DNA from: Chloroflexota bacterium
GTDB lineage: Bacteria; Chloroflexota; Dehalococcoidia; SHYB01
Length of the DNA: 36,131 bases
Direction of reading: 5' to 3'
Assembly: GCA_016875535.1 (NCBI GenBank)
Contig: VGPF01000024.1
Location: 1-36,131 of the forward strand
The notes below the pieces were generated by a model. The model worked only from the letters and a program-made list of their open reading frames with translations, was not told where the DNA came from and did not search any database. The position numbers and the translations under genes are program-made. Below are positions 3,233 to 35,601 of this stretch, in pieces; within the stretch, counting starts at the first letter, position 1; each line of letters starts with the position of its first letter.

Positions 3233-5707
3233 CTACCGTGGTGCGTGTTCTGCGGGCGTGGCTCTTAGCAGGGGATCCTTCTCAGCGGGGAGTCCCTGCA
3301 GCAGGCTTTTGCGTATCAACTCGGTGTGCTGACCCAAGAGGGGCGCAGCCTTGAATTCGGGAGGGCGCTCGCCATTGAGGAGCCATGGCGTGGTGCCCAT
3401 GCGGCGCCTTCCGATTTCCGGGTGAAAAACATCGGCGATGAAGTGGCGCTGCAGGAGGTGACGGTCCGAGATGAGGTCCGCCGAGTCGAAGACCACCGTT
3501 GCAGGAACGCCTGCCCTCTGTAGAAGCTCTTCTGCCGCCTCCGCCGGCTGTGGGCTGGTCCAAGACTCGATGACGGCATCCAACTCGGCTGCGTTGCGTT
3601 CCCGCGCTTCGGGGTCGCGGAAGCGTGGGTCGGCCATCCATTCGGGATGGCCCGTGGAGCGGCAGAAGGCTTCCCACTGACCGTTGCCGCCGATGGAGAT
3701 GGCGACCCATCGCTGCGCTCCGGCGCACCGATAGATGCCGTGAGGTGTCTTTCCCCTTTCCTTGTTGCCCACGAGCGTCGGCTCGTGATAGTTCAGCCCG
3801 TAGGCGGCGATGGCTTCGGGGATAACAGTCGCCAGGGCTTCCGTCATGGCGAGCTCAATGAACTGTCCCCGGCCTGTGCGGGCGCGCAGCCGGAGGGCTG
3901 CCAATATAGCGAGCACGCAATAGCAGCCACTGAAGTAGTCCGGGAAGAAGGCCCCGAGAATGCGGGGATGCCCTCCCGGGTATCCAGTCACAGAGGCCAA
4001 CCCGCTGTACAGGTTGATCACGCTGTGGAAGCCCACAAAGTTGCGCATGGGCCCGCTGCGCCCGAATGCTGTCAGCGAGAGGAAGATAAGATCAGGCCGG
4101 AGCGCCCGGGCTGCTTTGTACGGCAGGCCTAGGCGTTCCATGATGCCAAACGAGAAGTTTTCTACAACCACGTCGCTAACAGCTACGAGCTCGCGGGCGA
4201 TTTGCAGGTCTCTCGCCTCGCCCAAATCCAGGCAGATACTCTGCTTGTTCGTATTCAGCAGATTGAAGCCGCCGCTCCGATTCACCCCAGGCTGTGCCTC
4301 AGCGTAGGGGGGAAGCCCTCGCAGTGTCAGCTTCTCAGGGTTCTCCACGAGCAGCACTTCGGCTCCGAGCCATGCGAGCGCCTGCGTAGCGTACGGGACG
4401 GCGATGAGCTGTCCGAAATCGAGGATGCGGATGCCGGCAAGCGGCTTGCGCGGGTCCCGAGAAGCGGGGTGGACAGCCTGACCAGCGCTCGTCCGCTGCG
4501 TCCATGGGTCAGTTGCTGCCTCTCTGGGGATGAAGCTGAAGGCGTTTCCGGGTGGAGCCGACAGGCCGGCGGTGCTCCCCCGGCGAGCGTTCACGCGTAT
4601 CGGGTTGCCCGGCAGCAGCACCCGGCTTCCATCGGTCAGGCGATCTTTTCTTATGAAGCCTCGGGATCTGGTTTGCGGCGAATCTACCATCTGGCCGATC
4701 CCGTACGCCGGGAAGCAGGGCACGCCGTGCACTTGGGCGAGTTTGGCGATCTCTTCGCCGGTGTGCGCCGTTGTCCACTCGAGGAGCAGCGGCTCAAGGG
4801 CGTCCCAGTTTCGCGCGCGGTCGGCGGAGGTGGCAAAGACCTCTGACGCTCCCCAATCGGGCCGGCCCATGACCCTGACCAGGCTGCGCCAGTGGTGGTC
4901 CAGAAAGGCGGCAACGACAACATAGCCGTCCTTGCACGGAAGGTACGCGTTCGGCTGACTGCCAAAAACCTCAGGATTCCGCCGTTTAGGCGTAAGGTGG
5001 GATGCGTGGGCGATCTCCCAGGTCATGATGGCCGCTACGGCTTCCTGCTTGCTGATATCGAGCTCGCACCCCTGTCCGGTGATATCTCTGCGCGCCAGCC
5101 CCGCAAAAACTGCCGTGGCGGCCTGGATGCCGGCGGTGTACTCGCCGATATGGGTGTTCGCACGGAGCGGCGGCTCCTCATAGGGGTCCCGGGGCATATC
5201 AGGCAATCCCGGGGACGCAAAGGCGAGTCCGCCGGCGCTCACGGTGATCAGGTCGTCGCCGAGATACGTTCGCTTAGAGCCCGTTAATCCGAAGGGCGTC
5301 AGTATGGAGACAATGAGCCTGGGATTAACTGACGCAAGCTCTGCGTAGCGGAGATTGAGCCGGTCTATCGTGGATGCCGGGGCATCAAGCAGCAGCACGT
5401 CTGCATCGTTGAGGAGCTCGAGTATCCGGGGGCGGTTCTGCCGCTCGGAGCAATCAAGAATCAGACCTCGCTTCCCTCGATTGAGGTAGTGAAAGAGGAT
5501 GCTTGAATTCGGTCCCGGCGTCCGGCCCGGAAATGGGCCTCGGGAACGGGAGCTATCACCCGTTGGCGGTTCAATTTTGATGACATCGGCTCCGGCATCG
5601 GCCAGGAGGCGGCAGGCGTAAGGTCCGGCCACGAAATCGGCAATCTCAACGACGCGGAGGCCGCTCAATGGAGCGGTTGGCAGTGAGTGGTGTGCGCTGC
5701 GACGCAT
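3233..5707 (-). CDS. Double-domain family III (CaiB/BaiF) CoA-transferase, 824 aa
   Basis: Two complete family III CoA-transferase domains are fused: about residues 12-395 (opening PLSGLRVVEIADFVAGPYA) and 420-800 (opening PLAGIRILDFGQLIAVPYA). These enzymes move CoA between carboxylic acids through a glutamyl/aspartyl-CoA intermediate. The first domain keeps the catalytic aspartate, D152 in GDDLITVSAGG. The matching position of the second domain is H561 in GFHSVINLYSG. One half may therefore be structural, whereas single-domain family members are interlocked homodimers with two sites. Typical members are 380-430 aa, so the length reflects the fusion. The start codon lies 2 bases after the amidase stop, indicating translational coupling. 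The role is probably CoA activation of the acid released by the amidase; this is inference. Confidence 0.9.
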   Translation of the reverse strand: MRRSAHHSLPTAPLSGLRVVEIADFVAGPYACRLLADAGADVIKIEPPTGDSSRSRGPFPGRTPGPNSSILFHYLNRGKRGLILDCSERQNRPRILELLNDADVLLLDAPASTIDRLNLRYAELASVNPRLIVSILTPFGLTGSKRTYLGDDLITVSAGGLAFASPGLPDMPRDPYEEPPLRANTHIGEYTAGIQAATAVFAGLARRDITGQGCELDISKQEAVAAIMTWEIAHASHLTPKRRNPEVFGSQPNAYLPCKDGYVVVAAFLDHHWRSLVRVMGRPDWGASEVFATSADRARNWDALEPLLLEWTTAHTGEEIAKLAQVHGVPCFPAYGIGQMVDSPQTRSRGFIRKDRLTDGSRVLLPGNPIRVNARRGSTAGLSAPPGNAFSFIPREAATDPWTQRTSAGQAVHPASRDPRKPLAGIRILDFGQLIAVPYATQALAWLGAEVLLVENPEKLTLRGLPPYAEAQPGVNRSGGFNLLNTNKQSICLDLGEARDLQIARELVAVSDVVVENFSFGIMERLGLPYKAARALRPDLIFLSLTAFGRSGPMRNFVGFHSVINLYSGLASVTGYPGGHPRILGAFFPDYFSGCYCVLAILAALRLRARTGRGQFIELAMTEALATVIPEAIAAYGLNYHEPTLVGNKERGKTPHGIYRCAGAQRWVAISIGGNGQWEAFCRSTGHPEWMADPRFRDPEARERNAAELDAVIESWTSPQPAEAAEELLQRAGVPATVVFDSADLISDRHLLQRHFIADVFHPEIGRRRMGTTPWLLNGERPPEFKAAPLLGQHTELIRKSLLQGLPAEKDPLLRATPAEHAPR

Positions 5708-9803: not shown

Positions 9804-10649
9804 ATGGACTATCAGACCATCGCATACAGCACCGTCGGCCCTGTTGCTGTTATCACGCTCAATCGCCCCGAGGTGCGCAATGCGCAAAACGAGCTTCTGA
9901 AAGAGGAGCTTGATGCTGCTTTGCATCGGGCTGATGCGGAAGAGGCTATCCGAGTCATAATCCTAAAGGGGGCCGGCTCGAACTTTTCCGCCGGACACGA
10001 TATGAAGCAGTTCCCAAAGGACCCGACCGCCTTTGGGGCCGCCGATCCCAGGAAGTGGTTTGAGGGGGATACGGAAAAATTCCGTCAGTTCGTCTACAAG
10101 GTGCTCCGCCTCTTTCTGAATGTGCACTACACCAAAAAGCCGACAATCGCCCAGGTTCACGGCCATGTCATCGCCGGCGGGTGGGTTTTGGCTTCCATGT
10201 GCGACCTGATCATCGCTTCTGACGACACTACCATCGCAGACCCGGTGGTGCGGATGGGTTCGGCGGGCGTTGAAGCGATTGTGGAGCCTTGGGATGTGGG
10301 TCCGCGGAGAGCCAAGGAGCTCTTGTGGACCGGCGATTCAATCTCGGCTGACGAGGCCTGGCGGCTCGGTATGGTAAACCGGGTTGTTCCGGCGGCGAAA
10401 CTTGACGAAGAGACGATGAGACTCGCGCAGAAGATAGCGCTCTCGCCCCCTGGAACGGTACAGGCAACAAAGCGCTCCATCAATCATGCCCTTGATCTGA
10501 TGGGGTGGCGCGCGAGCCACGAATTCCATACAGAGTTGTGGGTGGCGAACAACCTTAGCGATGAGCACAAACGGCTCCACGCTGAGAGGGAGAGCATGGG
10601 CCTCCGTGAATTCATCAGGCGGCGAGATCAGCCGTTCCAGAAGCGCTAG
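9804..10649 (+). CDS. Enoyl-CoA hydratase/isomerase family (crotonase), 281 aa
   Basis: This crotonase-fold enzyme has the NRPEVRNAQN opening, the first oxyanion-hole segment SAGHDMKQF, the second at HGHVIAGGWVLASMCDLIIAS, and ADPVVRMGSAGVEAIVEPWDVG in the active-site region. It probably hydrates, isomerises or cleaves an acyl-CoA. A good ribosome binding site (AAGGAG) precedes the ATG. It is a close paralogue of the next gene: both share long stretches, the unusual FPKDP/FPRDP-type insert after the oxyanion hole, and a basic C-terminal tail. The pair probably arose by tandem duplication. The specific reaction is unknown. Confidence 0.9.
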   Translation: MDYQTIAYSTVGPVAVITLNRPEVRNAQNELLKEELDAALHRADAEEAIRVIILKGAGSNFSAGHDMKQFPKDPTAFGAADPRKWFEGDTEKFRQFVYKVLRLFLNVHYTKKPTIAQVHGHVIAGGWVLASMCDLIIASDDTTIADPVVRMGSAGVEAIVEPWDVGPRRAKELLWTGDSISADEAWRLGMVNRVVPAAKLDEETMRLAQKIALSPPGTVQATKRSINHALDLMGWRASHEFHTELWVANNLSDEHKRLHAERESMGLREFIRRRDQPFQKR

Positions 10650-10662
10650 CGGAGGGGCGACG

Positions 10663-11514
10663 ATGGCATACCGAACAATTCGTTATGAGACAGCAGGCCC
10701 GATAGCCGTAGTGACGCTCAATCGGCCCCAGGCACTGAATGCGCAGAATCAGGATATGAAGGAAGAGCTTGCCGAGGCCTTCAACGTTGCTGCGAGGAGC
10801 GATAGCGTCCGTGTAGCGGTCCTGCGCGCTGAAGGCAGAGCCTTCTCTTCCGGCCATGACCTTAAGAGTTTCCCGCGCGACCCGGAGGCGCTCGGCGGAC
10901 CTTCAAGCGACAAGTGGTTCGAAGGGGACTCGGCTAAGGTGCGTGACCTCTTCTATGAAGCGATTACCCTGAAGTGTCTGGCTATCCACGATTTCAAGAA
11001 GCCTCTCATCGCCCAGGTTCATGGGTACTGCGTTGCAGGCGGATGGCTTCTTGCCTCGATGTGCGACATCATCATCGCAGCTGATGACGCCCGCTTTCGA
11101 GACCCTGTGGTGCTCATGGCCGCCGGCGGCCTTGAGCTTCTGGTGGAGCCCTGGGACGTCGGCGTGCGCAAGGCCAAGGAGTTGATGTGGACCGGGGACT
11201 ACATGGATGCCCAGGAAGCCCTGCGCCTTGGATTTGTGAACAGGGTGGTGCCGCGCGCGAGGCTTGAGACGGAGGTGATGACGCTTGCAAGCCGGATCGC
11301 GATGATGCCTCCGGTCACCGTCCAGGCGGTGAAGCGATCGGTGAATCATATGCTGGACTTGAAGGGATGGCGTCGGTCTCATGCCGATCACTTCGAGATC
11401 TGGTCGTCCTGCATGGTGAGCGATGAGCATAAGGCCGGCCATGAGGGGATGGCAGCCGGTACGCTCAAGCAGTTCATCAGAAAGCGGGACGAGCCGTATG
11501 AGCGGATGACGTGA
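10663..11514 (+). CDS. Enoyl-CoA hydratase/isomerase family (crotonase), 283 aa
   Basis: This is the tandem paralogue of the preceding crotonase, with SSGHDLKSFPRDPEAL, HGYCVAGGWLLASMCDIIIAADD and GGLELLVEPWDVGVRKAKELMWTGD. The start is taken at the ATG at 10663, which has GGAGGGGCGACG directly upstream; a longer frame reaching into the previous gene is not used. The stop is only 6 bases from the stop of the convergent isochorismatase-like gene. The two crotonases may form a hetero-oligomer or act on successive intermediates; this is inference. Confidence 0.9.
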   Translation: MAYRTIRYETAGPIAVVTLNRPQALNAQNQDMKEELAEAFNVAARSDSVRVAVLRAEGRAFSSGHDLKSFPRDPEALGGPSSDKWFEGDSAKVRDLFYEAITLKCLAIHDFKKPLIAQVHGYCVAGGWLLASMCDIIIAADDARFRDPVVLMAAGGLELLVEPWDVGVRKAKELMWTGDYMDAQEALRLGFVNRVVPRARLETEVMTLASRIAMMPPVTVQAVKRSVNHMLDLKGWRRSHADHFEIWSSCMVSDEHKAGHEGMAAGTLKQFIRKRDEPYERMT

Positions 11515-14259: not shown

Positions 14260-14449
14260 GACGCCACCTCACCCCTCAGGATTCCACGACTCCCCGTAAA
14301 TCTATCCCCGCAGGCCGTAAGTATACACGCTTGCCCCTAGGGAGGCACAATCTCTAGCATCGGGACATGCTGCGGAAGCCGATTTGCTTCCGCGGCGTGC
14401 AAGTCGTGCGAATTCGGGCTGGATCTCACCACCTGAGGAGGTGCCTGCG
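14260..14449. promoter_or_regulatory. Divergent control region between regulator and ABC binding-protein gene
   Basis: This gap separates the regulator gene from the ABC operon and is where an operator would be expected. A perfect 8-bp inverted repeat, GCGGAAGC (14372-14379) and GCTTCCGC (14386-14393), lies about 60 bases before the binding-protein start and is a candidate operator or leader hairpin. On the minus strand TATACT (14320-14325) could be the -10 of the regulator gene. No clean -35 is seen for either direction. Confidence 0.4.
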
Positions 14450-16207
14450 ATGCGAATTTTGGTGAAAAAGAGCGTTCTTTCCACCCTTGCGGCAGTCATG
14501 GCGCTGGTGCTCGTCATCGCGGCTTGCGGCGGCGACGACGCAGAGCCCACGGCAACGCCAGTCCCCACGGCAACGCCAGTCCCCACAGCTGCCCCTACTG
14601 CAGCGCCGACCGCGGCGGCAACCCGCGCACCTACGGCGGTGCCGACACCTGCGCCGACGCCGACGCCGGCCTCTACAATCAAAGACACGACCATCGTTGT
14701 GGCGCTGGACACCCTAGAGCGTGAATTGTGGTTGCACCATTACGGCGGCTCCACCATGTTCAACCCGCGGCATGCGATGTTTGAGGAGCTGGCCGTCTGG
14801 ACGCCTAGGTTCTCTGAAGCGCGCCTTGCAGAGTCTTGGTCGGTCGGGTCCGACTCCAAGAGCTTCACGATCAAGCTTCGCAAGGGCATCAAGTTCCATG
14901 ACGGCGATGAATTTATCGCTGAAGATGTCATCAAAACCTACGATCTTCTCTACGAGCGTGAGGCGAGCCACGCCGGTCTCTCAACCATCCGGCCTCTCCT
15001 CGGCACAACCCAGGACGAATTCCGGACCAATATCCGCGCCCTGGATCAATACACGGTTGAGATGAAGTCCAAGATCCCATACGCGCAGTGGCTGCCAACC
15101 ATCATCGGACCAGTTTCTGCTCCTTTCCTTGTTGTCAATGCGAGCGTGGTGAATCGTGTCGGAACCACGGAGGCTGCAGCCAAGCCTGTCGGTACCGGAC
15201 CGTTCAAGTTCGAGCGTCACAACAAGGGTCAGAGCATCCGTGTTGAGGCTGTTGCCAACCATTGGCGCAAGACTCCTACGGTAAAGTACGTTGATTACCA
15301 AATCGTCCCTGAGTACGCGACCCAGCTTGCACTTGTGGCAACGGGGAGGGCGGACATCATCAACATCTCCGCTAGTCAGGTCGCCCAAGCCCGCCGCGTC
15401 GGTGCGAAGCAGGTGGTGGACGATGCCGGGTACAACGTGTGGTATGCCCTGCGCGGCCAGATCCCTGAGACGCACAAGAATTACGATGGAACGCTGCCCT
15501 GGGTGGACGGCAAAGACCCGGAGCGCGCCAAGAAGGTACGCCTCGCGCTCAACCTCGCCCTTGATAGGAAAGGCATCATTGACAGGCTCTACGGCGGCAT
15601 AGGCCAGCTTTCCTCCCTTGGCGCCTGCACCTTCCCCGGCCAGTCGTGGTACTACGGCGACCCGTACCCCTACGACCAGACCCAGGCCAAGCAACTCCTA
15701 ACGGAGGCCGGATACGCCAACGGCTTTGAATTAGAGATCCCCATCTACGACCAGGCCAGCGGCCCGGTTGGCCTCGGCCTTCATGATGTGGTGGCGGACC
15801 AGTGGCGCCAGATCGGCGTGAAGGTGAAGACGGTTCCGGCAGACTTCACCGTCTTCCGCGAAATCCTGCTCAACATCACTCAGCCCAAGCTGACCTACTA
15901 CTGGTACTGCAACTTCTCCGACCCCGACCCGATGCGCTACTACAACTTCTTCTACCACGTAGCGAACCCGGTCTGGTTCGGCAGCCCCGCTCTTGAGACC
16001 ATGCTGGATAAGGCGAATGCGGGCCTTACACCTGAGCAGCGGAGGGAGCCGATTCTTGCGATTAACAAGTACTTCCGGGATAACCACTACTGGGTACCCA
16101 TGTTCGTGCTTCCCAAGCTGTACGCAACCTCCCAGCGCATTGACAAATGGCCGCTGGTTTCCGGACACCTTCGTGTCCACAATCTCGAGCATCTGACGGT
16201 GAACTAG
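14450..16207 (+). CDS. ABC transporter substrate-binding lipoprotein, family 5 (peptide/opine/nickel type), 585 aa
   Basis: This is a secreted, membrane-anchored binding protein. A basic start and hydrophobic stretch end in the lipobox LVIAAC, with lipidated C26. A low-complexity Pro/Thr/Ala linker of about 45 residues follows, as seen in many Chloroflexota lipoproteins. The mature part carries family 5 features: LAESWSVGSDSKSFTIKLRKG, KFHDGDEFIAEDV, KPVGTGPFKFERH, LALNLALDRKGIIDRLYGG and a late PDPMRYYNFFYH segment. It captures a peptide-like or other small organic ligand for the two permeases encoded downstream. The ATG at 14450 follows GAGGAGGTGCC; an upstream ATG at 14384 is not used. A terminator follows at 16258. 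Confidence 0.93.
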   Translation: MRILVKKSVLSTLAAVMALVLVIAACGGDDAEPTATPVPTATPVPTAAPTAAPTAAATRAPTAVPTPAPTPTPASTIKDTTIVVALDTLERELWLHHYGGSTMFNPRHAMFEELAVWTPRFSEARLAESWSVGSDSKSFTIKLRKGIKFHDGDEFIAEDVIKTYDLLYEREASHAGLSTIRPLLGTTQDEFRTNIRALDQYTVEMKSKIPYAQWLPTIIGPVSAPFLVVNASVVNRVGTTEAAAKPVGTGPFKFERHNKGQSIRVEAVANHWRKTPTVKYVDYQIVPEYATQLALVATGRADIINISASQVAQARRVGAKQVVDDAGYNVWYALRGQIPETHKNYDGTLPWVDGKDPERAKKVRLALNLALDRKGIIDRLYGGIGQLSSLGACTFPGQSWYYGDPYPYDQTQAKQLLTEAGYANGFELEIPIYDQASGPVGLGLHDVVADQWRQIGVKVKTVPADFTVFREILLNITQPKLTYYWYCNFSDPDPMRYYNFFYHVANPVWFGSPALETMLDKANAGLTPEQRREPILAINKYFRDNHYWVPMFVLPKLYATSQRIDKWPLVSGHLRVHNLEHLTVN

Positions 16208-22215: not shown

Positions 22216-23385
22216 ATGACGCCAGCCACTGAGACCATGAGCGAGCAAGATAAGGCGATTATCACGATGATCCGCGACTTCGTGAAACGCGAAGTCGAGC
22301 CCGCGGCGCTGGAGATGGAGAACAAGGACGTTTATCCGTTCGCGCTCGTCGAAAGGATGAAGTCCCTGGGCCTGTTCGGGTGCACCATCTCGGAGCAATA
22401 CGGAGGCATGGGCCTCAGCGTGACTACCTACGTACGGGTGATCGAGGAAATCTGCAAGGGATGGATGAGCGTTTCAGGCATCATCAACGCGCACCTCATC
22501 ATGGCCTATATCGTTGAGCAGTTCGCCACGGAGGACCAGAAACGCCGGTGGCTTCCTAACATGGCGACCGGCGAGACGCGGGGCGGTTTTGCGCTTACTG
22601 AGCCCGATTGCGGCAGCGATGTCTCTGCCATCCGGACGTTTGCCGTCAAGCACGGCGATCACTACGTGGTGAATGGCAACAAGATGATGACCACCAACGG
22701 AGAGCACGGGACGACTTTCCTAGTCCTCGTGAAAACCGACCGGGAGATCCAACCACCTCACAAGGGGCTGAGCGCCTTCATCATGACCAAAGGGAACGGA
22801 TTTCGTCACGGGCGTCACCTCGATAAGCTCGGGTATCGGGGTGTTGACACCTCCGAACTTATCTTCGAGGACTTCCGGGTTCCCGCCGATGGTCTGATAG
22901 GCAAAAAGGAAGGCCAGGGCTTCAAGTACGTGATGAACGGCCTGGAGCTGGGTCGCATCAATGTTGCTTCCCGCGCCGTCGGCGTTGCCACGGCTGCCTT
23001 TGAAAAGGCTATTGCCTATGCACAGCAGCGCAAGACATTCGGCGTCCCTATCGCGGAGCACCAGGCCATCCAGTTGAAGCTTGCCGATATGTACACTCGC
23101 ATCGAAGCCTCACGGCTCCTGGTGCGCCAGGCAGCCGAGAAAAAGGATCGCGGAGAACGCTGCGACCTCGAGGCTGGGATGGCCAAGCTCTTCGCAAGCG
23201 AGACTTGTGGCTTTGTTTCCCTGGAGGCCATGCGCATTCATGGCGGCTACGGTTTCTTCAAGGACTACACGGTTGAGCGGTACTACCGGGATGCACCTCT
23301 CATGATGATCGGCGAAGGGACAAATGAGATTCAGCGGCTCGTTATCGCTCGTAATCTCCTTCAGCTCTACCAGGCTGGGGCCTAG
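22216..23385 (+). CDS. Acyl-CoA dehydrogenase, 389 aa
   Basis: This FAD enzyme introduces a 2,3-double bond into an acyl-CoA and passes electrons to ETF. The domains are in the standard order: an N-terminal helical domain, the beta domain with ALTEPDCGSDVSAIRT and the YVVNGNKMMTTNG strand, and the C-terminal helical domain with AQQRKTFGVPIAEHQAIQLKLADMY (start about residue 275), IHGGYGFFKDYTVERYYRDA and GEGTNEIQR, whose EGT glutamate is the usual catalytic base. The length is typical of short/medium-chain members. It sits between two crotonase genes and probably acts with them in one pathway. Chain length and substrate unassigned. Confidence 0.95.
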   Translation: MTPATETMSEQDKAIITMIRDFVKREVEPAALEMENKDVYPFALVERMKSLGLFGCTISEQYGGMGLSVTTYVRVIEEICKGWMSVSGIINAHLIMAYIVEQFATEDQKRRWLPNMATGETRGGFALTEPDCGSDVSAIRTFAVKHGDHYVVNGNKMMTTNGEHGTTFLVLVKTDREIQPPHKGLSAFIMTKGNGFRHGRHLDKLGYRGVDTSELIFEDFRVPADGLIGKKEGQGFKYVMNGLELGRINVASRAVGVATAAFEKAIAYAQQRKTFGVPIAEHQAIQLKLADMYTRIEASRLLVRQAAEKKDRGERCDLEAGMAKLFASETCGFVSLEAMRIHGGYGFFKDYTVERYYRDAPLMMIGEGTNEIQRLVIARNLLQLYQAGA

Positions 23386-23413
23386 CGCCACGGCGGCGAA
23401 TGGCTGTGCAGTC

Positions 23414-24220
23414 ATGAAATACCAGACGATCCTTCTCGAGCGCATTGGGCAGGTTGCCAAGCTGACCCTGAACAGGCCGGAAGTGTTGAACGCTATTAAC
23501 GGGCGGATGTTCGAGGAATTGCTCGCCGCCCTTCGCGAGGTGGCTGCAGACGATAGCTCTCGAGTCCTTGTGCTGACCGGAGCGGGCCGGGCGCTTTGCT
23601 CCGGCACAGACATCACCGAGGAGAAGGCTGAAGGCGAGCGGTTGCTCCCGCATATGTCTCCGCTTGAGATAACGGAATATATGAGGACAAGGCCGCAAGG
23701 GGTAGCCACTGCGCTCCAACGACTGCCCAAGCCGACCATCGCCATGGTCAATGGCCTGGCGATGGCGGATGGCTTCGACTGGGCCCTCGCATGCGATATA
23801 CGCATCGGCAGTGTGCATGCTCGATTCAGGAATGGCTCTCTACAGTTGGGCCTGGTATCGAACTCGGGCGCCACATGGCTCATGCCGCGAGCTCTTGGGC
23901 TGGGCAAGGCCTTTGAGTTCTTGTACACGGATGACTGGCTCGATGCGGAGACTGCATTGCAGCTCGGCGTTCTAAATAGACTCGTCCCTATTGATCAGTT
24001 GGAATCGGAGACGCTGGCCTTAGCCGAGCGGATCGCCTCTAAGGCGCCGGTTGCGAATCGCCTCGTGAAGGAGTTGGTCTACCGCGGCCTTCGACAGCAA
24101 TTTGAGGAGCATCTGCCTGAAGCAGCTTTCGCAGAGGCTCTTACGCTGGCCACTGACGACCACAAAGAAGCTCTCGATGCCTTCCTCAGCAAACGCCCGC
24201 CGAAATTCTCAGGGCGCTAA
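23414..24220 (+). CDS. Crotonase-family protein with altered active-site glycines, 268 aa
   Basis: It starts MKYQTILLERIGQVAKLTLNRP and follows the crotonase plan, but the usual GxxxGGG segment reads NGLAMADGFDWALACDIRIG, replacing two of three glycines by Ala-Asp. The first oxyanion-hole segment is SGTDI. The same change occurs in its paralogue at 24686, so it is a family feature, not an error. It probably catalyses a reaction other than simple hydration. The ATG at 23414 is taken because the sequence aligns with the paralogue; the ribosome binding site is weak. It follows the acyl-CoA dehydrogenase by 28 bases. Confidence 0.87.
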   Translation: MKYQTILLERIGQVAKLTLNRPEVLNAINGRMFEELLAALREVAADDSSRVLVLTGAGRALCSGTDITEEKAEGERLLPHMSPLEITEYMRTRPQGVATALQRLPKPTIAMVNGLAMADGFDWALACDIRIGSVHARFRNGSLQLGLVSNSGATWLMPRALGLGKAFEFLYTDDWLDAETALQLGVLNRLVPIDQLESETLALAERIASKAPVANRLVKELVYRGLRQQFEEHLPEAAFAEALTLATDDHKEALDAFLSKRPPKFSGR

Positions 24221-27067: not shown

Positions 27068-27293
27068 TTGTGCAGGAATACCGTGGTCTGCACCAGTTGA
27101 AGTCTGGACAGGTGCAATTCGCTTGAGGAATCCAAGTAGTGGCCGGGTGCAGAGTCCGCAGCGCCGCGCCGGGGTCGCCTTTGTTTGCGCAGGCGCTAAT
27201 CCTGGGGAAGTGTACCTAGGCCGTCCAAATCTAATTGGTGCAGTACAAAGCCTGCAATCGCCTGCTTCTAGGATAATTTAGGGAGGAAGCTCA

Positions 27294-27815
27294 ATGGAAC
27301 CATCAACAGGTGGACAAAAAGAAATCTTCACGACGATTACCGCGAACCTTTTACGTGACTATCAGTCCCAAATCACTATTAACACGACAGAACCGCGAAA
27401 GGGCTACGGGCCATGGTCTTTCATCGTTGATGAGCAACCGGGTGCCGGAGGCCAAGGCGCTGGGCCGGCGCCGGGAGCAGTAGCAATGGCAGGCCTTGCG
27501 GCTTGAACTGTCGGCACAATGGCGGGCGTGGCCCGTCGAAGAAACATTCCGCTTCGATCTCTTAGAGTGGAAATCGAACTGCACCGCATCTTTCAAGACA
27601 AAACTGAAGCCGAGCGAGCCGCCGCGGAGGGCATCGGTCTAGACCGCAAACGGAAGGTTGTAAAGCGTGTAATCGTTGGTACTGCGGTTGAGTTGAGTGA
27701 GCGGGACGTGACTGTTCTGCGAAATACCATTAAGTACTGTCCCGTCGGTCGCATGTTTTCTGGGGGCAATATCGAATGGACAGAGGAGCTGCGGATAGAA
27801 AAGGTCGAGAACTAA
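27294..27815 (+). CDS. OsmC-family peroxidase, probable selenoprotein (in-frame UGA at the catalytic Cys position), 173 aa
   Basis: OsmC-type proteins reduce organic peroxides with a peroxidatic and a resolving cysteine. Codons 1-70 match the family's N-terminal half: a central strand FIVDEQPGAGGQGAGPAPGA and the start of the long helix VAMAGLAA. Codon 71 is TGA (27504-27506). Without changing frame, TVGTMAGVARRRNIPLRSL and the rest of an OsmC domain continue to 27815, including the second family cysteine C149 in KYCPVGRMF. The family reads LAALGxCT at the UGA site, so UGA stands exactly where the peroxidatic cysteine belongs. A GC-rich hairpin lies about 21 bases after the UGA, as a bacterial SECIS should. 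GGGAGG precedes the ATG. Alternatively it is a pseudogene with one nonsense mutation. Confidence in the OsmC identity is higher than in recoding. Confidence 0.8.
27522..27538 (+). promoter_or_regulatory. Candidate bacterial SECIS hairpin
   Basis: GGCGGGC (27522-27528 region) pairs with GCCCGTC around a small GTG-containing loop, giving seven pairs, six Watson-Crick and one G-U. The loop starts with G and lies about 21-24 bases downstream of the UGA codon at 27504-27506. That is inside the 16-37 base window known for bacterial SECIS elements, which must fall within the coding region. Folding was judged by eye. Confidence 0.6.
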
Positions 27816-29804: not shown

Positions 29805-30137
29805 ATGGCTATCTACGAATTCCGCTGCAGCAAATGTGGTCATGTCTTTGAAGTCTTTCGGCCCATGAGCGAGTTCAATAAGCCAGCCAAGTGTCCCAAG
29901 TGCGGCAGCAGGGGCGAGCGCCTGGTTTCGGACTTCGCCTCTAACCAGGAGTCGTCGATGCAAGTGCCGACAGGAGAAGTGCTTCGTGAACCGCCACCCA
30001 GCGTGACAGGACCTGCCCCTCACCCGTCCCGACCAAAGAGCAAGGCAATGACAAAACGTCCCAGCCCTCGGAGCAAGCCTCGCAAGAAGCGGTCCAAGGT
30101 GACGCCTAACAAGAAACGTTCAGCCAAACGAAAGTAG
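29805..30137 (+). CDS. FmdB-like zinc-ribbon protein, 110 aa
   Basis: This is a small zinc ribbon with C8, C11, C30 and C33 (MAIYEFRCSKCGHVFEVF ... CPKCG) of the FmdB/CxxC_CxxC_SSSS type, a putative regulatory or nucleic-acid-binding family. After about residue 70 the protein becomes a basic Lys/Arg/Pro/Ser-rich tail, longer than in most members and likely disordered, suited to nucleic-acid contact. The start ATG at 29805 gives the canonical N-terminus. It precedes the SRAP gene by 110 bases. Function otherwise unknown. Confidence 0.85.
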   Translation: MAIYEFRCSKCGHVFEVFRPMSEFNKPAKCPKCGSRGERLVSDFASNQESSMQVPTGEVLREPPPSVTGPAPHPSRPKSKAMTKRPSPRSKPRKKRSKVTPNKKRSAKRK

Positions 30138-30247
30138 TCCTGCCTCATGAAGGGTTGGCGGAAGGTCCTTGGGTATTGCGCCTCTTTGTCGCGTCGCTGC
30201 CGTAAAATGTGACGGTCTCGCAGTACGTCTGAGCACGCTCCATCAAC

Positions 30248-30913
30248 ATGTGCGGACGATACACGCTCTACAGCGACATGACCGCGATGGAGGCCCGCTT
30301 CGAGTTTCGAGGCGAGGGGCTATCCTATCGCCCCAGCTACAACATCGCGCCTACCCAAGAAGTCCTTACCGTCGTCAACGACGGGATGCGCCATGGCCGG
30401 ATGATGAAGTGGGGCCTTATCCCATCATGGTCGAAGGACGGCAGGCCCTCATACTCCACGATTAACGCCAAGGCCGAGACCCTGGCGACCTCCAGGCTCT
30501 ACGCCCCCGCCTACAAGAAGCGCCGGTGCCTCGTCCTCGCGAGCGGCTTCTACGAGTGGCGCAAAGAGGGCGCGACCAAGACGCCGGTGCACATCCGTCT
30601 GAAATCGGACAAGCCCTTCGCCTTCGCTGGCCTGTGGGACTTCTGGAAGTCGCCTGAAGACAAGGGCGTCTTTTCCTGCACCATCGTCACAACGACGCCC
30701 AATGCCGTTGTCCGGCCCATCCATGACCGGATGCCGGTGATCCTGTCGCGAGAGGCCGAGGCGCTCTGGCTGGACCCGATGACGAGCGACGCCAAGGTTT
30801 TGGACAGGCTGCTCATCCCCTTCACAGACGAGCCGATGGTGGCCTATGAAGTGCCACTGGCCGTCGGCAACGTGAGGAACAACACCCCCGACCTAGTCAA
30901 GCCAGCTTCCTAG
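30248..30913 (+). CDS. SOS response-associated peptidase (SRAP; HMCES/YedK-like), 221 aa
   Basis: SRAP proteins crosslink covalently to abasic sites in single-stranded DNA through Cys2 and so protect them. All key residues are visible: C2 (MCGRYT), N73 (INAKAET), E103 (FYEW) and H159 (IHDRMP). The YNIAPTQ motif at 31-37 and the RRCLVLASGFYEW core are typical, as is the length. The initiator methionine must be removed to expose Cys2, so the ATG at 30248 is certain. It is 130 bases upstream of the SOS-controlled mutasome operon, forming a small DNA-damage island. No SOS box is seen before it. Confidence 0.95.
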   Translation: MCGRYTLYSDMTAMEARFEFRGEGLSYRPSYNIAPTQEVLTVVNDGMRHGRMMKWGLIPSWSKDGRPSYSTINAKAETLATSRLYAPAYKKRRCLVLASGFYEWRKEGATKTPVHIRLKSDKPFAFAGLWDFWKSPEDKGVFSCTIVTTTPNAVVRPIHDRMPVILSREAEALWLDPMTSDAKVLDRLLIPFTDEPMVAYEVPLAVGNVRNNTPDLVKPAS

Positions 30914-30973
30914 GCGAGTCCTTCTGGGCCGCCTCCTTCGATCCTCTTCTGTCGCCTATCTGACGAATCTATG

Positions 30974-31002
30974 TTGACGGCATAGAACGTCTGTTCTATC
31001 CT
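30974..31002 (+). promoter_or_regulatory. SOS promoter with LexA box, driving the imuB-dnaE2 operon
   Basis: The sequence ATAGAACGTCTGTTCTAT at 30982-30999 is a perfect 7-4-7 inverted repeat containing GAAC-N4-GTTC, the LexA box of Gram-positive/Chloroflexota type. It lies exactly between a -35 (TTGACG, 30974-30979) and a -10 (TATCCT, 30997-31002) with a 17-base spacer, so LexA binding would block RNA polymerase directly. The imuB start is about 40 bases downstream. Confidence 0.85.
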
Positions 31003-31043
31003 TGCTCTCCGCCCGCTTACCTAGGTGAGGCTAGGGGGAGGCT

Positions 31044-32225
31044 ATGTCCATTGCCTGTGTCCTGCTTACCCATTTCGCCGTCAAATTCGAGCTCCTGAGG
31101 CGTCCCGAGCTGCAGGGACGGCCTTTCCTAATCGCCAGCACGGAGGGACAGCCGTCGACCGTCATCGCCCGGTCTATCGAGGCGAAGGGCATCGATGCGG
31201 GGATGAAACTCGACCATGCCATGGCCCGTTGCCCGCAGGCGGCCGTCCTCAAAGCCGACACGGGGGCCTACCGCGAGGCCTGGGATAGGGTCCTGGATGC
31301 CCTGGAGCAGCGCAGCCCCGCCGTTGAGGACGCCGGGACCGGGACGGCATATGTGAACATGCAGGGCCTCGACATGCTCTACGGCACTGACGCCAACCTG
31401 GTGCATGCCCTCCTTGCCTCTGCGCCAGGGGCCTACAACCCCCGCATCGGCATCGCCAAGGGGAAGTTCCCTGCGATGGTGGCGGCCCTCAAGGCCCAGG
31501 CCTCCGGCGCATACCGGGCCGTAGACGATGTAGCCGCCTTCCTCGCCCCACTCCACGTCCGCCTGCTCCCGACATCGCTCGCCATCAAAGACAGGCTCGT
31601 CGGCTTCGGGCTTCATAGCCTCGGCAGCATCGCCGCCATAGGCTTTGGGAAGATGCAGGCGCAGTTCGGGCACGAGGGGGCGCGGCTCTGGCTTCTCGCG
31701 AACGGGATCGACGAGACGCCGGTCAGCGCCAGGGCGCACGAGAAGGTCTTCTCCTGTTACCTCGATTTCGCCGTGCCAACCGCCTCCCTCCAGGCGCTAA
31801 CCGCCGCCGTTGAGGACCTGATCCAGCGTGCCTTCAAGAGCGCCGACCTGGCTGGCCGCCACGTGCGGAAGGGCCGACTTTCGGGCGACGTAGAGGGAGG
31901 CGTGCCGTGGGTCAAACCCCTGCCGTTCCGTGAGCCGGTGAACAGCCCGACGGAGGCCATGCGCCGTGTCCGCTATCTCTTTGAGGGGGTATCCCTACCC
32001 GGCCCGCTCCTCAACCTTACCCTGACGCTTACCGGCGTGACCGGCGAAGCGGGCAAACAGGGCAGCCTCTTCCCGGAGGCGCGTGTCATCGAGCAAATCG
32101 ACGAAGAGTTGCGCCAGTACAGAGCGAGGCAGGGAGAGCCAGCCCCAATCTTCCACTACCGCGAGGTCGATCCATGGTCGCGACTGCCAGAGCGCCGGAA
32201 CGCGCTCATTCCATACGTCCCGTAA
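31044..32225 (+). CDS. imuB: ImuB-like inactive Y-family polymerase of the SOS mutasome, 393 aa
   Basis: This is a Y-family (DinB-related) protein in which the catalytic acids are gone: the first motif reads ACVLLTHFAVKFE, where an active enzyme has an aspartate, and the SIDE motif is replaced by VEDAGTGTAYVNM. That is the hallmark of ImuB, a scaffold linking DnaE2 to the sliding clamp. A clamp-binding motif Q339-G-S-L-F343 near the C-terminus supports this. The ATG follows GGGGGAGGCT. It is the first gene after the LexA box and is followed by an overlapping small gene and dnaE2. ImuA is absent from the window. Confidence 0.9.
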   Translation: MSIACVLLTHFAVKFELLRRPELQGRPFLIASTEGQPSTVIARSIEAKGIDAGMKLDHAMARCPQAAVLKADTGAYREAWDRVLDALEQRSPAVEDAGTGTAYVNMQGLDMLYGTDANLVHALLASAPGAYNPRIGIAKGKFPAMVAALKAQASGAYRAVDDVAAFLAPLHVRLLPTSLAIKDRLVGFGLHSLGSIAAIGFGKMQAQFGHEGARLWLLANGIDETPVSARAHEKVFSCYLDFAVPTASLQALTAAVEDLIQRAFKSADLAGRHVRKGRLSGDVEGGVPWVKPLPFREPVNSPTEAMRRVRYLFEGVSLPGPLLNLTLTLTGVTGEAGKQGSLFPEARVIEQIDEELRQYRARQGEPAPIFHYREVDPWSRLPERRNALIPYVP

Positions 32226-32461
32226 ATGAGCCAGTCAAGGTCTCTCTGCGCCTCGGGCACGACCGGAAGCCGAAGGCCGTGCTACATGACGGCCGCTGGC
32301 GCCCTGTTGTCCAGGTCAGGGATGCTTGGAAAGTGAAAGAAGGCTGGTGGGCAGGCAAAGAGGTGGCGCGGCTCTACTTCGAACTGCACTTGAGGGACGG
32401 CTCAACCATAGCCGTCTTTCAAGACATGGACAGCAGGCAGTGGTACAGCCAGCGCCTGTGA
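32174..32461 (+). CDS. DUF6504-like small protein of the mutasome operon, 95 aa
   Basis: This small protein contains W..VVQVRDAWKVKEGWWAG, RLYFELHLRDGS and VFQDMDSRQWYSQRL, resembling DUF6504, found as a separate protein or C-terminal domain beside ImuB/DnaE2 in Actinobacteria and related phyla. Its function is not established. The only in-frame start before the conserved part is the ATG at 32174, so the gene overlaps the imuB end by 52 bases. It ends 8 bases before the dnaE2 ATG, implying coupled translation of the three genes. Confidence 0.7.
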   Translation: MVATARAPERAHSIRPVNEPVKVSLRLGHDRKPKAVLHDGRWRPVVQVRDAWKVKEGWWAGKEVARLYFELHLRDGSTIAVFQDMDSRQWYSQRL

Positions 32462-32469
32462 GCCGTCCC

Positions 32470-35400
32470 ATGTACACAGAGCTTCACCTGCATACGAACT
32501 ACAGCTTCCACGACGGGGCCTCCCGCATCGATGAACTGGTGCAGCAGGCGAAGGCCTACGGCTATGCCGCCCTGGCCGCGACCGACCACGACAACCTGTG
32601 TGGAGCGATGGAGTTTGCCCTCGCCTGCCGTGACGCGGGCATCCAGCCCGTCACCGGCTGCGAAGTCACCCTGACGAACGGCTTCCACCTCACGCTCCTT
32701 GCCGAGAGCCGCACGGGCTACGGCAATCTCTCCTGGCTTATCTCCCAGGCCCATCAGCAGGACAGGCAGCATCCCGCACTTGACCCGAGCCTCATCGAGG
32801 GACACACGGATGGCCTGATCGCTCTCTCCGGCTGTCGTAAGGGCGAAGTGGCAACCCTCATAGGGCATGGCCAGTACGACCAAGCCCAACGAGTCGCGAC
32901 GAGGTACCGTGAACTCTTTGGGCGGGAGAGCTACTTCGTCGAGCTTCAGCACCACCGGATGCGCGGCGATACGGAGCGGAATCGCCGTCTGGCCGCCCTC
33001 GCGGAGGCCATCGAGGTCGGCACCGTCGCGACAGGCAACGTCCACTACCACGAGCCGTCCCGCCACCGCCTCCACGACTGCCTGACGGCCATCAGGCACA
33101 ACCAATCCGTCGTGGAAGCCTACCGGCACCTGTGGCCGAACGACGAACTCAGCCTCAAACGCCCCAGCGACATGCTGCGCCCCTTCCAGCCGCATGGTGG
33201 GGCCGTTGCCAACACCGTCCTGATCGCCGAGCGGTGCAAGGCCTTCGACCTCGTGCGTGACCTCGCCTATAAGTTCCCCGACTACCGCGCTCCCGACAGA
33301 CTGACCCCCCAGGCATATCTCGAAAAGCTGTGCACAGAGGCGGCCATGCGCCGCTACGGCTCATTGACCCCCAAAGTCAGGCAACGCCTGGAGCACGAGT
33401 TCCGGCTTATCAAGAAGCACGACCTGGCGGGCTTCCTGCTGATCTACCGCGACATCATCCTGCTTGCCCATGAAGTGGCGGTTGACCTGGGCATCAGCGA
33501 CCCTGAGATGCCTGTGGAGATGCAGCCGCCGTGCAGAGGGCGCGGCTCGTCCGTGGCGATGCTGGTGGGCTATCTCCTGGGCATGTCCCACATCGACCCG
33601 CTCCACTACGACCTTACCCTGGAGCGATTCCTGCCCGAAGACGCCCTCCCAAGCGTGCCGGATATCGACCTCGACTTCCCCCGGAATATCCGTGAGGAGC
33701 TGATCCTGCGCATCCACCAGAAGTACGGGTGGGAGCGGGCAGCCCTCACGGGCATGATCGACACCTACAGGGTCAAAGGCGCAGTCCGCGATATCGGCAA
33801 GGCCCTGGGCATCCCTCAAGACCAGATCGACAAGCTGGCGAAAGACGTGGACGATTCGAACGCGGCAGCGCTTCGCGACCAGATGCGCCTGCACCCGGCA
33901 TGGAAGGACAGAGCGGACAAGCACCCTTGGAACGAGCTCATATGCCTCTCCAGCCAGATCGCGGGCTTCCCCCGCCAGCTCGCCCAGCACCCGGGCGGCA
34001 TGGTGATCAGCGACAGGCCCCTGACTGAGGTGGTCCCCATCCAGCCGAGCGCGATAGGGGGGCGCTACGTCATGCAATGGGACAAGGACTCGATAGACGA
34101 GGCCCGGTTCGTCAAGATCGACCTCCTGGCCCTTGGGGTCCTCTCGCAGTTCCAGCACTGCCCCAAGGTCATCGAGCGCCAGGCGGGACGGTGGATCGAC
34201 CTCTCCCGCATCGACTTCAGCGACCCCGAGGTGTACAAGCTCCTGCACAGCGGCGAGACCGTGGGCATCTTCCAGGTGGAGTCCAGCGCACAGATACAGA
34301 CCCTCCCCCGCCTCCGGCCCCAGAACCTCATCGACATGGCCCATGAGGTCGGGGCCGTCCGGCCCGGCGTGGGGGCCAACAACGGCGTCCGCCACTATAT
34401 CCGCAGGCGGAGCGGAGAGGAGCCGGTGACGTTCAACCACCCGCTGGAGCGGAGGGCTTTGGAGCGCACTCTGGGCATCGTGCTCTTCCAAGACCAGCTC
34501 GTCCAGCTGGGCGTGGACGTGGCGGGCTTCACCCCGTCCGAAGCCGACAAGCTGCGCCGCGCCTTCGGGAAGCGCAACGCGGACGCCCTCATCCCCAAGT
34601 GGTGGGAACGGTTCCGTGACGGAGCGGCGAAAAAGGGCGTAGACGAGGCGACGGCGAAGCGCATATTCAGCGTTTATAACGGGATGTACCAGTTTCCGGA
34701 GGCCCACGCCTTCGCGTTCGGCGTCACGGCCTACCAGAGTGCGTGGCTGAAGTGGTACTACCCCCTGGCCTTCTACATCGGCCTCTTCAACGAGCAGCCG
34801 ATGGGCTTCTACTCCCCTGAATCGCTCAAGGAGGATGCCCGGCGCTTCGGCGTGACGGTGCTAAACCCGGACGTGAACAGGAGCGAGGTCCTCTGCGTGG
34901 ACGAGGGGGATGCCATCCGCCTGGGCGTCGGCTATGTGGAGCATATCGGGGCGGCCTCGGCGAAGGCCATCGTCAAGGCGAGAAGAGAGCGGCCGTACGA
35001 GAGCCTTGCCGACTTCATGCAGCGCGCTGGCCTCGTCCAGCGCCAAGTCGAGTGCCTCATCGACGCAGGGGCGATGGACAGCCTCTGCCAGGACCGCAGG
35101 CAGGCGCGATGGGAAGCCGGGCTCCGGTACAGGCCGGTGACCGCCCAGTTCTCCTTCGCCCTGCCAGTCGAACAGGACATGCCCAAGCTGCCGCAAACGA
35201 CCGCCTTCGAAGAGATGACCCGCGAGTACCAGGCGATGGGCATCCATCCAAAGGGCCACGTGATGGCCTACGTGCGCTCACAGCTGCCTAAGAGAGTCCT
35301 GACCAGCACACAGGCCCTGGAAATCGCTGAAGGCGCTACAGTGACCGTAGCGGGGCTCATCACGCACAAGCAGCGGCCCTTAGCGGAGGCCGTCTTTGTG

Positions 35401-35601
35401 AACGTGGAAGATGAGTTCGGCACGGTGCGGCTCATCGTCTGGGCGAAGACCTACGAACGGTTCAAGGCCCCGCTGAACAGCCCCTTCGTGATCGTGCGCG
35501 GGAGGGTTTCAAGGCGCGAGAACACCTTCAACGTCATCCTGGAGAGCGCCTGGCCTCTACAGGTCACAGAGCATACGCCTCGGTCCAGGGACTTCAGATA
35601 G
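32470..35601 (+). CDS. dnaE2: Error-prone DNA polymerase III alpha subunit DnaE2, 1043 aa
   Basis: This is a C-family polymerase that performs mutagenic translesion synthesis after DNA damage. The PHP domain opens at residue 1 (MYTELHLHTNYSFHDG, with H6 and H8, and TDHDN). GRGSS lies before the palm, the catalytic pair is D400 and D402 in PDIDLDFP, and the third aspartate is D551 in FVKIDLLAL. The finger region has FGKRNAD, then HAFAFGVTAYQSAWLKWYYP and a C-terminal OB fold (VTVAGLITHKQRPL ... TVRLIVWAK). The length fits DnaE2 rather than replicative DnaE1 (about 1160 aa). The ATG at 32470 matches the family start; a longer frame from 32326 is rejected. The stop codon lies inside the right direct repeat. 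Confidence 0.95.
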   Translation: MYTELHLHTNYSFHDGASRIDELVQQAKAYGYAALAATDHDNLCGAMEFALACRDAGIQPVTGCEVTLTNGFHLTLLAESRTGYGNLSWLISQAHQQDRQHPALDPSLIEGHTDGLIALSGCRKGEVATLIGHGQYDQAQRVATRYRELFGRESYFVELQHHRMRGDTERNRRLAALAEAIEVGTVATGNVHYHEPSRHRLHDCLTAIRHNQSVVEAYRHLWPNDELSLKRPSDMLRPFQPHGGAVANTVLIAERCKAFDLVRDLAYKFPDYRAPDRLTPQAYLEKLCTEAAMRRYGSLTPKVRQRLEHEFRLIKKHDLAGFLLIYRDIILLAHEVAVDLGISDPEMPVEMQPPCRGRGSSVAMLVGYLLGMSHIDPLHYDLTLERFLPEDALPSVPDIDLDFPRNIREELILRIHQKYGWERAALTGMIDTYRVKGAVRDIGKALGIPQDQIDKLAKDVDDSNAAALRDQMRLHPAWKDRADKHPWNELICLSSQIAGFPRQLAQHPGGMVISDRPLTEVVPIQPSAIGGRYVMQWDKDSIDEARFVKIDLLALGVLSQFQHCPKVIERQAGRWIDLSRIDFSDPEVYKLLHSGETVGIFQVESSAQIQTLPRLRPQNLIDMAHEVGAVRPGVGANNGVRHYIRRRSGEEPVTFNHPLERRALERTLGIVLFQDQLVQLGVDVAGFTPSEADKLRRAFGKRNADALIPKWWERFRDGAAKKGVDEATAKRIFSVYNGMYQFPEAHAFAFGVTAYQSAWLKWYYPLAFYIGLFNEQPMGFYSPESLKEDARRFGVTVLNPDVNRSEVLCVDEGDAIRLGVGYVEHIGAASAKAIVKARRERPYESLADFMQRAGLVQRQVECLIDAGAMDSLCQDRRQARWEAGLRYRPVTAQFSFALPVEQDMPKLPQTTAFEEMTREYQAMGIHPKGHVMAYVRSQLPKRVLTSTQALEIAEGATVTVAGLITHKQRPLAEAVFVNVEDEFGTVRLIVWAKTYERFKAPLNSPFVIVRGRVSRRENTFNVILESAWPLQVTEHTPRSRDFR

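Follow-up and report, generated by a model that had tools for sequence, protein, structure and literature searches.

OsmC-like selenoproteins were described from the Sargasso Sea in 2005, with the motif UxxT (PMC1088965), and from the GOS data in 2008 (PMC2398784), so that the marine metagenome precedent mentioned in a preliminary description of the locus studied here does stand in the literature. MCS5647933.1 is an example of such a protein (PMC13188914), and the group appears in current reviews. In the Ohr protein of X. fastidiosa, Glu51, ten residues before Cys61, holds the catalytic Arg19 (PMC5962072); YhfA proteins, a subfamily with no assigned biochemical activity (PMC8945050, PMC5962072), lack this Arg and Glu but keep both cysteines (PMC8945050). 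Here, we compare with these systems a gene with an in-frame TGA in a 36,131-nucleotide stretch of DNA (the window) from a Chloroflexota bacterium of the Dehalococcoidia (GCA_016875535.1, contig VGPF01000024.1).

Results

The gene lies at positions 27294 to 27815 on the forward strand and is identified by its frame, by a Pfam OsmC match and by an orthologue that also contains TGA (both below). From the ATG at 27294 to the TAA stop it comprises 173 codons without a frameshift, and the sole internal stop is a TGA at codon 71 (27504 to 27506, forward strand), which, read as selenocysteine (Sec), gives a protein of 173 amino acids with U71. A Shine-Dalgarno-like sequence, AGGGAGGAAG, precedes the ATG at 27279 to 27288 on the same strand. 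The single frame with one TGA reported in the preliminary description was thus recovered without a second stop, and its expectation that a gene finder would split the gene proved correct: under translation table 11, the frame stops at codon 71 and the 3′ part is visible only as a separate 98-amino-acid ORF from the ATG at 27519, so that a standard gene finder would miss the gene as a whole. The GC3 of the gene is 0.52, compared with 0.73 in the large genes of the window, and the gene may therefore have been acquired recently, possibly by transfer.

As for the rest of the window, positions 3233 to 26606 hold many paralogous fatty-acid/CoA genes, including CaiB/BaiF-like CoA transferases, several enoyl-CoA hydratases, an acyl-CoA dehydrogenase and a MaoC pair, together with ABC peptide-transporter-like genes. 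Positions 29805 to 35601 encode an FmdB-type zinc ribbon, a SRAP peptidase, an ImuB/DinP-like Y-family polymerase and a 1091-amino-acid ORF resembling an error-prone DnaE polymerase, by the look of the genes an SOS mutagenesis-type cassette. The start coordinates are uncertain (TTG/ATG choice) for 10561 to 11514, 23324 to 24220 and 14384 to 16207, where the listed starts fall within the likely genes or far 5′ of them.

The host genome (2.52 Mb, 98% complete) encodes a tRNA-Sec with a UCA anticodon (66 bits; ARAGORN agrees) as well as selA, selB and selD, each scoring over its curated cutoff, and selD itself has an in-frame TGA, in GGU. The UGSC family (NF041046) has seven matches in the host, on seven contigs; six of the seven contain one in-frame TGA, and in five the TGA was directly observed to be the U of UGSC. 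These genes form a large paralogous set. Given the tRNA-Sec, selA, selB, the TGA-containing selD and the UGSC genes, the host very probably makes and uses Sec, and the search for the machinery bears out the earlier supposition of a Sec-making host.

To compare the TGA site among homologues, we aligned 36 OsmC-type genes with re-extracted frames, drawn from 148 related and 393 same-class genomes; five matches that gave no usable homologous frame on re-extraction were left out. The TGA of codon 71, placed on the OsmC active-site cysteine in the preliminary description, indeed aligns with this invariant residue: the column holds only U (TGA; 7 of the 36 genes) or Cys (the other 29). The TGA genes comprise the window gene, its orthologue from the same family, two genes that score 151.6 and 143.2 bits, over the cutoff of the NCBIfam model NF041052, and three genes under that cutoff, which are of another OsmC type. 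Beyond the 36-gene alignment, an OsmC gene from another Chloroflexota class has TGA at the same motif (ALGA-U-TAMT) and a −10.7 kcal/mol hairpin whose offset equals that in the window gene; counting this gene, the distant Chloroflexota OsmC genes with TGA at this column number six. The comparison across related genomes proposed at the outset therefore yields TGA in the orthologue and six distant homologues and Cys in the others. Codon 149 (27738 to 27740, forward strand; KYCPVG), the second conserved cysteine and presumed resolving residue, is likewise kept as described, with Cys in at least 90% of the aligned proteins.

The orthologue, the sole relative found in a scan of named genomes, belongs to Dehalococcoidia bacterium Baikal-deep-G108 (same family; SHYB01000018), shares 45-47% amino acid identity with the window protein and has TGA at the aligned codon. 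Amino acid identity between the two is 0.45 before the TGA and 0.43 after it; codon identity is 0.54-0.62 at positions 1 and 2, and at position 3 it is 0.35 before and 0.34 after the TGA. Judged from these values, the sequence before the TGA and the sequence after it are under equal, protein-like constraint. No orthologue was found in the same-genus genome (70% complete) or in another family member, and one further orthologue makes for a small family-level sample. There is no synteny between the two loci, the neighbours of the Baikal gene (hisS, prfA-like and others, from their translations) being unlike those in the window; the neighbourhood thus gives no functional clue.

Maximum-likelihood analysis unites the window gene with the Baikal orthologue in a single long-stemmed clade (100/99), which stands apart from the remaining TGA genes, the NF041052 pair included; because of long branches, the deep placements in this tree are uncertain. 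The Sec label changes five times on the tree, at least three of these changes being forced by well-supported branches, and they may be gains or losses. It is tempting to speculate that the two proteins form a separate deep OsmC subfamily that gained Sec independently of OsmC_like_Se (NF041052) and that, having no Ohr/OsmC Glu, has a distinct Sec chemistry, a tentative proposal to which we give somewhat less than an even chance. If true, OsmC in Chloroflexota would be a repeated Cys/Sec switch.

Bacterial SECIS (bSECIS) elements have been constrained to a loop of 3-9 nt, a stem of 4-16 bp, a G in the first two loop bases, a distance of 16-37 nt from the UGA and an MFE of at most −7.5 (PMC13188914). 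The candidate hairpin of the window gene (27521 to 27537, forward strand) lies within every one of these limits, with a 7-bp stem (27521-27527/27531-27537), a 3-nt GUG loop (27528-27530) with G first that begins 21 nt after the UGA, and an energy of −12.5 kcal/mol. An equally stable hairpin occurs at that offset for about 2% of the codons in the window's genes, and 15% reach −7.5. The preliminary description, which had pointed to a hairpin about 21 bases downstream with G in its loop, was accurate as to geometry, but the hairpin is not stronger than the amino acid sequence demands: 21% of synonymous recodings equal it (P = 0.21). A shuffle test on 56 nt gave z = 0.11; for this stretch the ensemble is mixed, and another fold has a slightly lower energy than the one with the hairpin. 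Across the alignment, all seven TGA genes have a hairpin of −8.6 or better, compared with 4 of 29 Cys genes at −8 or better; the value for the difference in strength under a restricted offset (Mann-Whitney p = 8e-5) is optimistic, as the offset range was tightened once the sequences were known, and a less strict score used before that separated the two groups less well (p = 0.01). In four host UGSC genes, the stems are perfect or nearly so and carry the loops GUU, GUA, GUG and GUA at offset 22, and the window hairpin resembles these GUN-triloop hairpins; the fifth UGSC gene and selD fit this geometry poorly. No Rfam family matched in the window at gathering thresholds, nor is a match to be expected, bSECIS hairpins being too variable. 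Given the recoding result and the mixed ensemble, we regard the hairpin as compatible with SECIS function and, by itself, as weak evidence, not as independent proof in this gene.

The read-through protein matches Pfam OsmC (PF02566) over residues 53-163 (E = 1.7e-10; 41.6 bits against a gathering threshold of 27.5), and this one match crosses the TGA, in line with the earlier view that both halves are OsmC. Its best NCBIfam match is NF041052 OsmC_like_Se, ‘OsmC-related (seleno)protein’ (E = 8.2e-11, 42 bits, residues 37-153). An AlphaFold2 model of the protein (pLDDT 88.5) has OsmC/Ohr-type entries in all of its top 32 PDB matches (Z 10-13), among them 1lql (Z 13.4) and E. coli 1ml8 (Z 12.7; 2.1 Å over 128 residues). 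Of the leading matches, 1ml8 gives the smallest rmsd. We take this protein, labelled there only as hypothetical and from the crp region, to be YhfA. A single-sequence search of the PDB found only one chain, the OsmC domain of 9wo1 (E = 4e-6).

The Ohr/OsmC catalytic Glu is not present in the window protein, which has Gly61 at −10 and Ala62 at −9 (in the orthologue, Val and Asn), and no Arg occurs in the Gly-rich loop (residues 49-57). Since this is the YhfA-type condition, the protein is, on its residues, best called a Sec-containing YhfA/OsmC-like protein. The absence of the Glu makes a peroxidase function doubtful, so that of the Sec peroxidase originally proposed, the Sec at the active-site cysteine is upheld by the column of U and C only, the TGA of the orthologue and the Sec machinery, while the peroxidase part is weakened by Gly61 in place of the Ohr Glu and by the loop without Arg. 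Arg21, in the predicted β1-β2 loop, is conserved in the Baikal orthologue and could, speculatively, stand in for the Ohr Arg.

Discussion

The frame, the placement of its TGA, the TGA kept in the orthologue, a complete set of Sec machinery and the geometry of the hairpin can all be read directly from the DNA, and we consider it almost certain (probability of about 0.9) that the product of the gene is a YhfA-like redox protein of the OsmC superfamily with UGA codon 71 decoded as selenocysteine. SelB and tRNA-Sec would carry out this decoding, helped by the hairpin just downstream. In the product, presumably dimeric as its relatives are, Sec71 would be the attacking selenolate that reduces a peroxide or a similar electrophile, Cys149 would resolve it as a selenenylsulfide, and this Sec71-Cys149 bond would then be reduced by a cellular thiol or dithiol. 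Peroxide reduction by Sec71 with Cys149 as the resolving residue seems the most natural mechanism.

The same TGA could also be explained without Sec. The gene might be a Cys OsmC gene in which TGA is a sequencing or assembly error for TGC or TGT, a reading suggested by the Cys of 29 of the 36 homologues but rendered extremely improbable by an independent assembly with TGA at the same codon (SHYB01000018, only 45-47% identical at the amino acid level), by six more TGA genes in the phylum at the same column and by the Sec machinery. A pseudogene or a real stop, with a truncated 70-amino-acid product and a 98-amino-acid 3′ part translated separately or never, would agree with the stop under table 11, the internal ATG at 27519 and the low GC3; nevertheless, the only stop in 173 codons falls exactly on the catalytic residue, no frameshift or second stop accompanies it and the orthologue keeps the TGA, which leaves this reading very unlikely. 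Neither an error nor decay behind a real stop fits the equal conservation on the two sides combined with the shared TGA. It could further be argued that a frame opened by altering the code does not alone point to Sec, and that TGA is decoded as another amino acid, through a reassigned code or near-cognate read-through to Trp or Cys. However, TGA is also a normal stop in this host, where it ends 6 of the 26 large ORFs of the window, the Trp codons of the window ORFs are TGG (158), tRNA-Sec(UCA), SelA, SelB and SelD are all present, and homologues have Cys at the site, as is typical of Sec sites; we hold such decoding to be scarcely credible.

A selenoprotein that is not a peroxidase, in which Sec71 serves, for instance, thiol-disulfide exchange or the detoxification of other electrophiles, as may be the case in YhfA-type proteins, is a variant of our preferred explanation that differs only in the reaction. 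We rate it a serious contender, if at slightly less than even odds: the missing Glu and the Gly-rich loop without Arg (compare PMC5962072 and PMC8945050) and the lowest rmsd to 1ml8, there just a hypothetical protein, speak in its favor, but the Sec/Cys pair of the superfamily is kept and Arg21, if it does replace the Ohr Arg, would point back to a peroxidase.

The Sec-containing reading of the gene confirms a selenoprotein that standard gene finders would split and that the NCBI model NF041052 misses at its cutoff. It points to Sec use in these uncultivated bacteria, suggests repeated Cys/Sec exchange in OsmC within Chloroflexota and offers biochemistry a Sec form of YhfA-type OsmC proteins.

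Compared with known systems, the window protein shares with the Ohr/OsmC organic hydroperoxide peroxidases the fold and the paired active-site Sec/Cys positions, but those enzymes have a Glu ten residues before the Cys and an Arg in the Ohr loop or the OsmC Gly-rich loop, and the window protein has neither the Glu nor a Gly-rich-loop Arg. E. coli YhfA (1ml8) resembles it in fold, in the two active-site positions and in the missing Glu, and differs in having Cys in place of Sec and in an identity of only about 12%. The osmotically inducible protein C of 9wo1 (400 amino acids), matched at residues 283-340, also has Cys at the site. NF041052 OsmC_like_Se is the nearest NCBIfam model, yet the window protein (42 bits) and the Baikal orthologue (48 bits) miss its curated cutoff of 95 bits by far, whereas the two family members in our alignment score 152 and 143, and its second Cys lies in SACYVEQ, not in KYCPVG. 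With the published OsmC-like selenoproteins, the window gene has in common OsmC (PF02566/COG1765), a UGA in place of the active-site Cys codon and, downstream of it, a SECIS-type hairpin; the published motif UxxT sets it apart, as window (U-T-V-G-T) and orthologue (U-T-V-V-T) are without Thr at +3. Taken together, the gene belongs to a small, divergent branch of OsmC, and its protein is a new, divergent member of the known OsmC-like selenoproteins, not a new kind.
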